Source: Gemmatimonadaceae bacterium (lineage in GTDB: Bacteria; Gemmatimonadota; Gemmatimonadetes; Gemmatimonadales; Gemmatimonadaceae). Taken from it: a DNA stretch of 64,000 nucleotides. Positions 1 through 64,000 of the stretch are shown here, piece after piece; within the stretch, counting starts at the first letter, position 1; the number at the start of each line of letters is the position of its first letter. The stretch spans positions 1,054,001 to 1,118,000 of the forward strand of contig JAHBVT010000001.1 of NCBI GenBank assembly GCA_019637355.1, in the 5' to 3' direction. The translations under genes were made by a program, and so were the position numbers. The notes under the pieces were generated by a model that did no database searches, was not told where the DNA came from, and was given only the letters and a program-made list of their open reading frames with translations.

Positions 1-228
1 GTGCAGATCACCTCGTACACACGGGCCAAGGCGGATGCCCTCGGCGTGGACCTGAAGGGCGTCGGCGCGCTCGAACGCCCCGAGCGCATCACCCTGCTGG
101 CGGCGCCGCAGGCCTTCTTCGGCCTGATGTTCGCGGGGTGGGTGCTGCGCGGGGTGGTGATCCTGTTGGCCGCCACGGCGGTCTGGACGGTGATCCAACG
201 GGTGCGGCACGTCGCCCAGCGCGCGTAA
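1..228 (+). CDS. CDP-alcohol phosphatidyltransferase family protein, C-terminal part (5' cut by window)
   Basis: Only the last 75 codons are present; the frame is open at base 1, so the first GTG is probably internal. The protein begins with a TSYTRAKADALGVDLKGVG-type stretch followed by LERPERITLL and a hydrophobic helix (about residues 38-65). This is typical of the C-terminus of CDP-alcohol phosphatidyltransferases, membrane enzymes that transfer a phosphatidyl group from CDP-diacylglycerol to an alcohol such as glycerol-3-phosphate or inositol. The catalytic CDP-alcohol signature lies upstream of the window, so the acceptor alcohol cannot be named. Family assignment is from remembered family pattern and is fairly good. 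Confidence 0.65.
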   Translation: MQITSYTRAKADALGVDLKGVGALERPERITLLAAPQAFFGLMFAGWVLRGVVILLAATAVWTVIQRVRHVAQRA

Positions 229-280
229 CCTCGCTATTTTGTTGGGGTTCGCGGTTTCCCCCGCCCTGAAGGAGCTCCGG

Positions 281-721
281 ATGTCCCTCGCCCGTTTCCG
301 CTGGACCCCGATCCTGGCCGTCGTCGCCGCGGTGGCGCTGCAGGCCTGCGCCGCCCCGCCGGACGACCGCGGCCTCGTGCGTCTCTGGACCGACGACTTC
401 GAGGTCCGCCTCAAGCCCGACGTCGTCCCGCCGCGGGCCCTGGAGCGCATCACGTACACCATCACGGTGCACGACAAGAACACCCGCGAGCCCATCGTGA
501 ACGGCGAGGGCCAGATCTTCGCCACCAACGCCGACCGCCACACGGTCTACAACGGTCTCGTCTACGGACCCGAGGCCGGCACCTATCGTGCCACCATCAC
601 CTTCATCACCGCCGGCGACTGGGCGATGGGCTTCCGCTTCCGCCGCGATTCCACCAAGGCCCTGCAGCGCACCGAGGATTGGCGCCAGCAGGTGAGGAAC
701 GAGGCGCCGCCGGGGCAGTGA
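281..721 (+). CDS. putative lipoprotein, YtkA/FixH-like beta-sandwich
   Basis: The 146-residue product has a signal peptide with a lipobox ending at Cys23 (LQAC), so it should be lipid-anchored on the periplasmic side. The remainder is a soluble, strand-rich domain with a D-x-F-E-V-R-L-K-P start and a GDWAMGFRFRRD end, the pattern I associate with YtkA-like/FixH-type domains; that match is tentative. ATG281 is chosen because a GGAG box lies just upstream (272-275) and the signal peptide starts there; an upstream TTG at 239 would add a non-signal extension. TATTTTG at 235-241 is a possible -10 element. Followed by a heptamer inverted repeat. Confidence 0.6.
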   Translation: MSLARFRWTPILAVVAAVALQACAAPPDDRGLVRLWTDDFEVRLKPDVVPPRALERITYTITVHDKNTREPIVNGEGQIFATNADRHTVYNGLVYGPEAGTYRATITFITAGDWAMGFRFRRDSTKALQRTEDWRQQVRNEAPPGQ

Positions 722-727
722 GTTCTC

Positions 728-819
728 GACGGATGACGGATGACGGATGCTACATCCGCGCCGGAGTCCACTTCGCAGTGCTTTCGAAAGCATCCCTCAT
801 CCCTCATCCGTCCTCCGTC
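728..819. repeat. heptamer inverted array, GACGGAT type (locus A1)
   Basis: Left arm 728-751 is three GACGGAT units plus GCT; right arm 789-819 is the near-complement (AGCATCC-CTCATCC-CTCATCC-GTC...). They can pair over about 24 bases around a loop of about 37 bases. The right arm ends six bases before the ATG at 825. The same architecture recurs at several other gaps. Confidence 0.8.
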
Positions 820-61270: not shown

Positions 61271-61307
61271 ACGGCCCCAGCCGTCCTCCCCTCGTTCCCA
61301 CCGTCCG

Positions 61308-62810
61308 ATGAGCGCCCCCCTCCAGCTCGATGGCCATTCCCTGAGCATCGCCCACGTCGCCGCCGTGGCAGACGGTTACCGCGCGGTGCAGTTGGCGCCC
61401 GAGGCGTCTGCGCGGATGCAGCGCAGCCGCGGCATCGTCGAGGGCCTGGCCTCCGCCGGCGCCGCGGTGTACGGCGTAACCACCGGCTTCGGCAAGCTGA
61501 GCGACATCGCGATCCCGCCCGACCAACTCGCGCAACTGCAGGTGAACCTCATCCGCTCGCACGCGGCCGGCGTGGGGCCGCGCCTGCCAGAGCGTGAGGT
61601 GCGCGCGATGATGCTGCTGCGCGCCAACTGTCTCGCCAAGGGCTTCAGCGGCGCGCGGGCGGAGCTCGTGGAACTGCTCTGCGCGATGCTCAATGCGAGG
61701 CTGTGGCCCGACGTGCCGGAGCAGGGCAGCGTGGGGGCCAGCGGCGATCTCGCGCCGCTCGCGCACCTGGCGTTGGCGCTGGTGGGCGAAGGCACATTGC
61801 GTCACCCGCAGGGGCAGGGCCCGGCGGCGGAGGTGCTGCGCGCCCACGGGCTGAGCCCCGTGGCGCTGGGGCCGAAGGAGGGACTCGCACTGATCAATGG
61901 CACCCAGGCGCATACCGCGGTCGCGGCCTTGGCGCTGGTGGAGGCGCGACGCTGCTGGGACGCCGCGCACGCCGCCGGGGCGACCACGCTGGAGGCGCTG
62001 CTCGGCACGCCGGTGGCCTTCGACCCGCGCATCCACGACGCGCGCGGGCAGCGTGGCCAGCAACTGAGCGCCGCGCGCTTCCGAGAGCTCCTCGCCGACA
62101 GCGAGATCCGCGAGTCGCATCGCCGCGACGATCCGCGCGTGCAGGACGCCTACGGCCTGCGCTGTATGCCGCAAGTGCACGGCCCGGTGCTGCAGGCCAT
62201 CGAGTTCGCCGAGTCGCTGGTGACGCCGGAGCTGAACGCGGCGACGGACAACCCGCTGGTGTTCGACGACGGCACGATGCTCAGCGGTGGCAACTTCCAC
62301 GGCCAGGCCGCGGCGATGGCGCTCGACGTGTTGGCCATCGCGATGACCAACCTCGCCGTGATGAGCGAGCGGCGCAGCGACCGCCTCACGCATCCCGACC
62401 TCAACGAAGGCCTGCCGCCCTTCCTCACGCCGACGGCGGGCGTGAGCTCGGGCTTTATGATGGCGCAGGTGACCGCCGCCGCACTCACCAGCGAGTGCAA
62501 GGTGCTCGCGCACCCCGCCAGCGTGGACACCATTCCGACGGACGGCAGCAAGGAAGACGTGGTGCCGATGGCGATGGGGGCCGCGCTCAAGCTGCGCCGC
62601 ATCCTGCACAACCTGCGGCACGTGCTCGCGGTGGAGCTGATGTGCGCGGCGCAGGGACTGGAGTTTCGCCGTCCGCTGAAGGCCGGGGTGGGTGTGGAGC
62701 GCACGTATGCGGCGGTGCGCGCGCGGGTGCCGGCGCTTGCCGAGGACCGCGTGCTGGGGCCAGACATTGAGTCGCTAGCGGTTGGCGTCGCACTCGGGGA
62801 GTTTGTGTAG
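61308..62810 (+). CDS. hutH: histidine ammonia-lyase
   Basis: 500 residues. The MIO-forming triad Ala144-Ser145-Gly146 sits in GSVGASGDLAPLAHLAL, and YGVTTGFGKL provides the catalytic tyrosine loop. It deaminates histidine to urocanate, first step of histidine degradation. hutU follows across a large heptamer hairpin. Met61308 gives a normal N-terminus. Confidence 0.95.
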   Translation: MSAPLQLDGHSLSIAHVAAVADGYRAVQLAPEASARMQRSRGIVEGLASAGAAVYGVTTGFGKLSDIAIPPDQLAQLQVNLIRSHAAGVGPRLPEREVRAMMLLRANCLAKGFSGARAELVELLCAMLNARLWPDVPEQGSVGASGDLAPLAHLALALVGEGTLRHPQGQGPAAEVLRAHGLSPVALGPKEGLALINGTQAHTAVAALALVEARRCWDAAHAAGATTLEALLGTPVAFDPRIHDARGQRGQQLSAARFRELLADSEIRESHRRDDPRVQDAYGLRCMPQVHGPVLQAIEFAESLVTPELNAATDNPLVFDDGTMLSGGNFHGQAAAMALDVLAIAMTNLAVMSERRSDRLTHPDLNEGLPPFLTPTAGVSSGFMMAQVTAAALTSECKVLAHPASVDTIPTDGSKEDVVPMAMGAALKLRRILHNLRHVLAVELMCAAQGLEFRRPLKAGVGVERTYAAVRARVPALAEDRVLGPDIESLAVGVALGEFV

Positions 62811-62938
62811 GGACGGATGACTGATGACGGATGACGGATGACGGAGGCTGCGAGGGGTGAGGCACGCTAACTTTCGTGCTTCACCCCTTTCGTCGTCCGT
62901 CCTTCGTCCTTCGTCCTCCGTCGTCCGTCATCCGTCCT
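62811..62938. repeat. nested heptamer inverted array (locus A5)
   Basis: Left arm 62811-62849 has five GACGGAT-like heptamers; right arm 62891-62938 has six to seven TCCGTCN heptamers and ends on the base before the hutU ATG. Inside the loop is a second 13-base hairpin (62854-62866 with 62875-62887, one G-T pair), so the whole gap can fold as one long stem. Confidence 0.88.
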
Positions 62939-64000
62939 ATGCCCCAACCCATTCGCTCCCCCCGCGGCTCCACGCTCTCCTGCAAAGGCTGGCAGCAAGA
63001 AGCCGCGCTCCGAATGCTGATGAACAACCTCGATCCCGAGGTCGCAGAGCGGCCGGAGGACTTGGTGGTCTACGGCGGGACCGGCAGGGCGGCCCGCGAC
63101 TGGCCGTCGTTCCACGCCATCGTCAAGGCGCTGCGGGAGCTCGAGGCCGACGAAACCCTGCTCGTGCAGAGCGGCAAGCCGGTGGCGGTCTTCCGCACGC
63201 ACACGACGGCGCCGCGCGTCCTCATCGCCAACAGCAACCTCGTCGGGCGCTTTGCCACCTGGGAGCACTTCCGCGAGCTGGAGCGGAAGGGCCTGATGAT
63301 GTACGGCCAGATGACGGCGGGCTCGTGGATCTACATCGGCTCGCAGGGCATCGTGCAGGGCACCTACGAGACCTTCGGGGCGGTGGCGCGTAAACATTTC
63401 GGCGGCAGCCTGGCCGGGCGCTTCGTACTCACTGCGGGGCTCGGCGGAATGGGCGGTGCGCAGCCGCTGGCCGCCACGATGAACGATGCCGCGATCCTCG
63501 GCGTCGAGGTGGACCCCACGCGCATCCAGAAGCGCCTCGAGACGGGCTACTGCGACAAGATGACCACCGACCTCGACGAGGCGATGGGCTGGATCCGCGA
63601 GGCGCAGGCGGCCAAGCGCGGACTCAGCGTCGGGCTCGTCGGCAACGCCGCGGAGGTGCTGCCGCTGATGGTCGAGCGCGGCATCATCCCGGACGTCGTC
63701 ACCGACCAGACCTCGGCACACGATATGCTCAACGGCTATGTGCCGCACGGAATGAGCCTAGCTGAGGCGGCGGCGCTGCGGACGCGCGACCCCGAGGAGT
63801 ATGTGCGGCGATCGACGGCCAGCGCCGTCGCGCACGTGCAGGCGATGCGCGCGATGCAGGACAAGGGCGCCATCGCCTTCGACTACGGCAATAACATCCG
63901 CACCGTCGCGTTGGACGCGGGGCTCGGCGACGCCTTCCGCATCCCGGGCTTCGTGCCCGAGTACATCCGGCCGCTGTTCTGCGAAGGGAAGGGGCCGTTC
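62939..64000 (+). CDS. hutU: urocanate hydratase, N-terminal part (3' cut by window)
   Basis: 354 codons are present of an expected 550 or so; the frame is open at the window end. [47 protein letters not shown] (here only noted as residues 9-57) is the conserved urocanase N-terminus, with [14 protein letters not shown] for NAD binding and [18 protein letters not shown] later. It converts urocanate to imidazolone propionate using tightly bound NAD. The catalytic C-terminal motif lies beyond the window. Confidence 0.95.

Follow-up and report, generated by a model that had tools for sequence, protein, structure and literature searches.

CATG is the NlaIII-type site. It is also the site of IceA1/HpyI, and in Helicobacter pylori, which has a universal CATG methyltransferase, it shows the highest motif density of the motifs compared (PMC10423294, available excerpt); by that account, such a system alone does not force avoidance. 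Among R-M types, the orthodox Type II systems cause site avoidance, lost R-M systems leave avoidance traces, and for CTAG, 55% of site-genome pairs show under-representation, in most cases with no cognate system, according to the available sections of Rusinov et al. 2015 (PMC4687349). Campylobacter has few GTAC sites and Helicobacter even fewer, a scarcity that the accessible part of PMC10273834 ascribes to a long-inherited attacking enzyme of the PabI family, acting by base excision.

Here we describe CATG avoidance in a 64-kb stretch of DNA (the window) and in the genome around it. The window contains four CATG sites (Table 1) compared with about 198 expected under a second-order Markov model; the expectation is 232 under a first-order model and 183 from base composition, the last in agreement with an earlier estimate of about 180. 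The observed/expected ratio of 0.02 goes with the lowest z-score and is itself the lowest ratio among the tetranucleotides listed, and CATG-free gaps reach 35.4 kb. Our recount returned exactly the four positions named in a previous, sequence-only reading of this DNA, and the neighbouring words CATC and GATG are as common as that reading had claimed (513 and 481, respectively). In the window, secA, uvrB, carB, tolR and a TPR gene are supported by Pfam; other gene names, such as rpsD, are those of the sequence-only reading.

Restriction-site avoidance of this kind is known, and the present case is an extreme one. As in orthodox Type II avoidance, a short palindrome is depleted throughout the sampled genome to well under 0.78, a published cut-off that is defined for Kr and not for the Markov ratio used here (PMC4687349); the present case differs in that the ratio drops to 0.02 within the window and that no cognate system was found. 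The resemblance to the GTAC case, as far as the excerpt of PMC10273834 describes it, lies in the scarcity of one palindromic tetranucleotide, but the word is a different one and there the enzyme family is known. A palindromic tetranucleotide is also depleted in the CTAG avoidance of many bacteria, and CTAG itself is low here (0.41), whereas most of the 39 other phylum genomes that were scored have CATG at normal or slightly reduced levels.

Table 1. Coordinates of the features discussed. Positions refer to the window unless prefixed with C1; a hyphen marks a codon boundary.
Feature	Position	Strand	Basis or remark
CATG-purged resident DNA	1..64000	.	4 CATG versus 198 expected
Switched codon pair CAT-ATG	4258..4263	+	Sequence check
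Switched codon pair TTT-ATG	4864..4869	+	Sequence check
Switched codon pair ATT-ATG	11325..11330	+	Sequence check
Switched codon pair TTT-ATG	14848..14853	+	Sequence check
Switched codon pair AAT-ATG in rpsD	18113..18118	+	Sequence check; gene name from the sequence-only reading
Residual CATG in secA, AAC-ATG, C at codon position 3	35431..35434	+	Count; SecA by Pfam
Residual CATG from the base preceding the predicted uvrB start codon	45935..45938	+	Count; UvrB by Pfam
uvrB, genus comparison gene	45936..47990	+	0 CATG here
Residual CATG in tolR, TTC-ATG	53575..53578	+	Count; ExbD/TolR by Pfam
Residual CATG in TPR gene (cpoB in the sequence-only reading), ATC-ATG	56890..56893	+	TPR repeats by Pfam
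Stand-alone D12 adenine methyltransferase, conserved	C1:2821128-2822183
C5 methyltransferase (407 aa) and putative endonuclease (266 aa)	C1:2847956-2850056		Stretch L028

The depletion extends beyond the window. Twenty stretches of 20 kb each (400 kb) contain 106 CATG sites compared with 1244.6 expected; four of these had been deliberately placed on methyltransferase genes, and the other 16, roughly evenly spaced, contain 55 compared with 991.1. The genome sample, including the window, amounts to about 0.6 Mb of 3.15 Mb, and within it both the depletion and a bias towards NNT before ATG outside the window, as previously proposed, were found. CATG alone is extreme among the palindromes in 509 kb (the window and the stretches, with L010 and L015 left out), its ratio of 0.06 being followed by CTAG at 0.41, GATC at 0.71 and AATT at 0.81. 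In 15 CATG-poor sets (which exclude the CATG-carrying stretches L010, L014, L015, L023, L025 and L028), avoidance is present in all three reading frames of the genes, as predicted by a simple codon-score finder, and the non-genic DNA contains no CATG compared with 150 expected. Fifty-three of the 110 remaining sites fall within the 31 one-kb bins, of 464 in all, whose GC content is below 64%; bins with less than 60% GC have 2.18 CATG per kb, and those at 68–72% GC have 0.07. The low-GC stretches that still hold CATG look newly acquired, and CATG content can help to recognise recent acquisitions in this genome.

The CRISPR spacers (67) contain CATG twice, where about 7 to 9 would be expected (shuffling gives a P of about 0.03), a small shortfall that is not unique to CATG (GGCC 10 versus 18.9, GATC 6 versus 11.1). 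A search of IMG/VR for viral protospacers, made with the cores of three spacers out of 67, gave two matches, but the full spacer was mismatched at 10 of 36 bases and both were discarded as chance. These two sequences carry 19 CATG versus 25.8 expected and 26 versus 30.3, values that are uninformative on the viruses of this host.

The way in which CATG is avoided can be read from codon choice. In the predicted window genes, four-fold codons preceding ATG end in G 197 times, in A 9 times, in T 7 times and never in C, whereas C accounts for 239 of 401 such codons before ATC. Codons ending in C or T (two-fold codons and Ile) have T 43 times and C 3 times before ATG, compared with 3 and 128 before ATC, and His preceding G is written CAC in all 150 cases, CAC and CAT being used 168 and 61 times elsewhere. 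The sequence-only reading had described a change from NNC to NNT before ATG; this holds for the C/T-ending codons, whereas four-fold codons mainly adopt NNG. It had also stated that Gly-Met is written with GGG or GGA and never with GGC: GGC-ATG is indeed absent from the window (and occurs once in the whole sample), but next to 18 GGG-ATG and 7 GGA-ATG there are 3 GGT-ATG. Its five examples of codon pairs are correct, the AAT codon placed near 18114 beginning at 18113. Codon use before ATG fits a selection model in which a single parameter was fitted to C (2Ns 6.3): the model predicts A.080, C.003, G.879 and T.038, and the 15 CATG-poor sets show A.076, C.003, G.901 and T.020.

A sister species, G011, has 86% amino-acid identity over 40 window genes and has not been purged of CATG, which provides an unusually clean natural experiment: how strong the selection was, and by which route it acted, can be followed at individual codons. 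Only 3 of 159 CATGs in the window genes of G011 are kept here, whereas six control words are kept at 40 to 71%. Among 61 four-fold codons with C before ATG in G011, the present genome has G in 53, A in 7, T in 1 and C in none; 35 of 38 C/T-ending C-ATG codons are switched, versus 0 of 88 for C-ATC, and all 23 CAT-G have changed to CAC. CATGs common to G011 and G015 survive here in 2 of 39 cases, compared with 121 of 144 for C-ATC and 81 of 93 for C-AAG; some control words occurred too rarely to be of use (AATG 0 of 4 kept, CTTG 0 of 1, TATG 5 of 8). The uvrB alignment covers 15 genomes of the genus out of 17, the partial genes of G004 and G016 being omitted; its column 1418 reads CATG in 13 genomes, and TATG is confined to the present genome and G001. 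Parsimony on the uvrB tree places the selection later than the divergence from G011 and G002, the closest sister species in the sample. G001, a distant member of the genus, shows weaker avoidance (0.27), and intermediate ratios are found in G015 (0.50), G008 (0.55) and G007 (0.56), sample sizes for genus members other than the present genome being 7 to 160 kb. A TonB-type protein that matches a Gemmatirosa plasmid at 48%, against 27% for the next organism, points to Gemmatimonadota as the phylum. In the phylum at large, 39 of 40 genomes were scored (the stretch of G021 read as N), 8 of them on stretches under 10 kb; G057, at 0.37, is the only one below 0.4, and a 3.4-kb stretch of another gives 0.42.

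Strong selection has removed CATG in this lineage wherever synonymous change allowed it. That something selects against the word follows from its avoidance in all three frames and in non-genic DNA and from its loss by whichever synonymous route is open, giving strong support to selection as proposed in the earlier reading. Deamination to T of a methylated C within CATG would account for the C-to-T change in the C/T-ending codons, but the spectrum of four-fold replacements, with a single T among 61, excludes such decay; moreover, T is not raised before ATG, whereas a model of C-to-T mutation at 100-fold or more would give T 0.5 to 0.64 of the A/G/T share, and CAT-G disappears by a change from T to C. 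Mutational decay is thereby already refuted. The same verdict applies to chance, composition or codon usage as the source of the scarcity: the genome is GC-rich and codon-biased, but the deficit persists against the second-order Markov expectation, matched C-ATC words behave normally, and of the 39 other phylum genomes scored, two have the low values given above.

The avoidance points to an activity aimed at CATG in a lineage that has been little studied. The tetranucleotide is shared with the NlaIII and IceA1/HpyI systems, but PF05315 (NlaIII/IceA endonuclease) matched none of 395 phylum genomes including this one (earlier, none of 41), a weak negative of unproven sensitivity, as no control genome matched either; on this basis the family was set aside as the agent. 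No gene tied to CATG emerged among the families searched (PF01555 and PF00145 were searched in this genome and in control genomes) in a genome that is 96.5% complete and was partly read, and none of its several methyltransferases has known CATG specificity. Of four Type II pairs or sets found next to methyltransferase genes, three have CATG within their own genes. The fourth, the C5 methyltransferase and putative endonuclease of stretch L028, lacks CATG in both genes, each of which would be expected to have 1.5 to 4; an adjoining 297-aa frame holds one. The endonuclease call comes from a single PADLOC match (E 5e-9), with no Pfam, NCBIfam or PDB match no relative in plasmids and none in IMG/VR, where the search reached close relatives only, and its single-sequence fold is useless (mean pLDDT 33). 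Of 179 family genomes, one gave a match to the endonuclease, and its partner had only partial matches in 20 other genomes, with at most 40% identity over long stretches. The pair is a candidate that looks private to this genome, and it cannot explain avoidance in G001.

We consider it probable that the selection is exerted by a Type II endonuclease that cuts CATG and is active in the cell today. By analogy with the available sections of published work (PMC4687349), a CATG-cutting Type II system would be the best explanation. Occasional failure to protect a CATG would cause such an enzyme to cut the cell's own chromosome, each CATG would carry a small cost and mutants without it would win; newly acquired-looking low-GC stretches would keep their sites for want of time. 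An active cutter must tolerate the 106 CATGs that remain in 400 kb. The earlier reading had named a type II restriction system or a phage-borne nuclease as the usual cause of such avoidance. This is partly supported: strong selection is in keeping with a Type II system, but the families searched have yielded no CATG-specific endonuclease or methyltransferase, and the data speak neither for nor against a phage-borne nuclease. The lack of cognate genes among those families in this genome would suit a Type II system that caused the purge and has since been lost, with nothing acting now; traces of lost systems are common in the accessible portion of PMC4687349, and the intermediate ratios in the genus agree. 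We regard this as rather unlikely, as the window, at 0.02, shows no sign of rebound and mutation would probably rebuild CATG on a synonymous timescale, so that any loss would have to be very recent.

More doubtful still is a defence nuclease that cuts CATG without a partner methyltransferase, so that what marks self is the missing word and not methylation. It would be consistent with the complete lack of CATG in non-genic DNA of the CATG-poor sets, with spacers that look CATG-poor, and with the methyltransferase searches, which identified no CATG enzyme here and gave no D12, N6_Mtase or C5 match in the depleted G001. However, the search in G001 covered those three families only, and islands and a few core genes retain CATG in numbers that would be intolerable unless the nuclease were induced or context-dependent. 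It is accordingly improbable that an unprotected nuclease tells self from foreign by the absence of CATG, a state that would have been reached at least twice in the genus, fully here and partly in G001. Phage nucleases, or restriction in DNA-exchange partners, could deplete CATG from outside without any resident system, which would fit the spacers and the intermediate ratios of several other genus members; occasional transfer would hardly yield such strong selection on coding and non-genic DNA alike, making this source highly improbable.

Known CATG methyltransferases belong to the broad D12 adenine methyltransferase class. If a resident CATG-cutting Type II endonuclease is at work, the conserved stand-alone D12 enzyme could supply the protection. 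As a cause it was rejected, and it is kept only as a possible protector: the gene is present in 11 of 17 genus genomes, and its presence does not track avoidance (median CATG ratio 0.74 with D12 and 0.79 without; p 0.73). At 8 of 13 D12 loci the neighbour that could be read is one and the same gene, which looks by eye like a 3-hydroxyacyl-CoA dehydrogenase; the remaining flanks differ or could not be called. The nearest named relative found is from Thermus phage phiLo (48.5%) and carries the note 'putative M.Tsp509I', the site of which we take to be AATT; weaker relatives are annotated as FokI, LlaI or 'ulcer associated' methyltransferases.

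CATG is almost absent from the window and scarce well beyond it. The window, which occupies C1:1054001-1118000 of genome G000, holds four CATG sites, at exactly the positions listed in the sequence-only reading, against 183 expected from composition, 232 from a first-order and 198 from a second-order model, and CATG ranks lowest of the tetranucleotides there. In 509 kb of the same genome, G000 (3.15 Mb, 96.5% complete; stretches L010 and L015 left out), observed/expected ratios are 0.06 for CATG, 0.41 for CTAG, 0.71 for GATC and 0.81 for AATT, and at least 0.96 for the remaining palindromes listed. 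Twenty 20-kb stretches from this genome carry 106 CATG sites against 1244.6 expected; four were deliberately placed on methyltransferase genes, and the other 16 carry 55 against 991.1, extending the depletion beyond the window. With six CATG-bearing stretches set aside, the window and the 14 CATG-poor stretches together (15 sets) have 15 sites in genic DNA against 902.8 expected, and none in non-genic DNA against 150. CATG avoidance is real and spans the sampled genome.

The remaining sites are concentrated: 401 of 464 1-kb bins (window plus 20 stretches) are CATG-free, and the 31 bins below 64% GC carry 53 of the 110 sites, the density being 2.18 per kb below 60% GC versus 0.07 at 68–72% GC. 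These low-GC stretches are probably recent arrivals. The small contigs C2 and C3 (L146 and L147) differ from the chromosome, with 19 sites against 37.9 expected and 10 against 12.1, and are either recent mobile DNA or contamination.

Codon choice reveals the nature of the pressure. The examples of switching to T before ATG in the sequence-only reading are correct, but the rule needs amending: C/T-ending codons take T (T 233, C 25; all stretches), whereas four-fold codons mostly take G (G 1372, A 127, T 35, C 15; all stretches). Histidine codons preceding G are CAC in 998 cases and CAT in 7 (all stretches). Across the 15 CATG-poor sets, C-ending four-fold codons make up 0.3% before ATG versus 63% before ATC, and the relative shares of A, G and T before ATG stay near those elsewhere. 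With 2Ns fixed at 6.3, a model of selection matches the four-fold spectrum before ATG; under a C-to-T mutation model, T would make up at least half of the A/G/T share, which that spectrum contradicts. The cause is selection acting on the word CATG itself, not mutation.

Turnover was followed in 40 window genes aligned with their counterparts in G011, one of the nearest sampled sister species (86% amino-acid identity). Only 3 of 159 G011 CATGs survive in G000, whereas six control words survive at 40 to 71%. The 61 four-fold C codons before ATG in G011 end in G000 in G (53), A (7) or T (1), with C in none, versus C unchanged in 110 of 157 four-fold C|ATC controls (bar, codon boundary). Likewise, 38 C/T-ending codons before ATG in G011 are now T in 35 and C in 3, versus C unchanged in 88 of 88 C|ATC controls, and CAT|G became CAC in 23 of 23. 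With the genus member G015 as third genome (31 genes), 2 of 39 CATGs common to G011 and G015 survive in G000, versus 121 of 144 C|ATC and 81 of 93 C|AAG controls.

The sequence-only reading had proposed a type II restriction system or a phage-borne nuclease as the cause. Selection on CATG stands; its agent is most likely a putative Type II system that cuts CATG, more likely present today than lost. According to a survey of restriction–modification types, avoidance is caused by Type II systems with separate endonuclease and methyltransferase, in about half of cases; it increases with residence time, and lost systems leave traces (PMC4687349). Self-restriction is described as a cost lessened by site avoidance (PMC6629147). 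The avoidance here is an extreme case of a known phenomenon, comparable to that of GTAC in Helicobacter and Campylobacter (PMC10273834). A caution comes from H. pylori, in which CATG is abundant despite a universal CATG methyltransferase (PMC10423294). The literature searched, which lacks most subscription papers, yielded nothing on avoidance of CATG in this group.

Methyltransferase families found in the genome are PF01555 (one place), PF00145 (three genes), PF02086 (two genes) and PF02384, the last with two weak matches to a 1,015-aa and a 1,064-aa open frame. Three sets each carry CATG in at least one gene: the GATC-type set, whose Sau3AI-like endonuclease scores 279.3 against an NCBIfam cut-off of 300; a C5 methyltransferase adjoining a GIY-YIG protein; and two methyltransferases adjoining a putative phospholipase-D-type nuclease (read by eye, without a Pfam match). 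GATC is itself mildly low in the sampled genome (0.71), which has this Sau3AI-like endonuclease and C5 methyltransferase set. The fourth set pairs a C5 methyltransferase of 407 aa with a 266-aa protein that PADLOC labels REase_II (E 5e-9), a putative endonuclease matched in 1 of 179 family genomes. This pair contains no CATG, which is weak evidence because just 1.5 to 4 would be expected per gene; an adjoining 297-aa frame has one. A search of the phylum genomes, run without a positive control, gave no match to the IceA/NlaIII endonuclease family.

Eleven of the 17 genus genomes carry the stand-alone D12 adenine methyltransferase, which extends to other genera as well (found in 43 of 395 phylum genomes at E 1e-40) and is 48.5% identical to a Thermus phage phiLo protein. 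No endonuclease was recognised among its neighbour genes, and its presence does not track CATG avoidance in the genus. It appears to be a conserved methyltransferase with a regulatory role.

Coordinates of features in G000 (L, sampled stretch; C1, contig)
Feature	Location	Strand	Description
GATC-type set	L028:15946-17313 and L003:1444-2829		Sau3AI-like endonuclease and C5 methyltransferase; CATG-bearing stretch
D12 adenine methyltransferase	L027:11125-12183; G000:C1:2821128-2822183	-	Stand-alone
CRISPR array	L157:8384-13306		68 identical 36-base repeats, 67 spacers (2,475 bases)

CRISPR spacers offer a view of invader DNA. They contain 2 CATG, where composition predicts 7.0, a first-order model 8.7 and a second-order model 9.3 (P ~0.03 by shuffling). 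Since GGCC (10 against 18.9) and GATC (6 against 11.1) are also scarce, the deficit only suggests that invaders avoid CATG as well. Putative cas genes, recognised by eye, adjoin the array.

Within the genus, sampled DNA gives CATG ratios of 0.27 for the distant member G001, 0.50 for G015, 0.55 for G008 and 0.56 to 1.07 for others. Among the uvrB genes of 15 of the 17 genomes in the genus, those of G000 and G001 lack CATG altogether, and each of the remaining 13 contains 1 to 10; one alignment column reads TATG in G000 and G001 only and CATG in the 13. The single-gene uvrB tree groups G000 with its sister species G011 and G002 (support 0.978) and G001 with G008 (1.000). Given this separate placement, avoidance would, by parsimony, have been gained more than once or lost several times in the genus. 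Among 39 other phylum genomes scored, CATG is lowest in G057 (0.37; 20-kb stretch L212; same order, another family) and G170 (0.42, on 3.4 kb only), the rest ranging from 0.62 to 1.42. In G308, of the same class, CTAG stands at 0.06 of expectation (L232, 20 kb).
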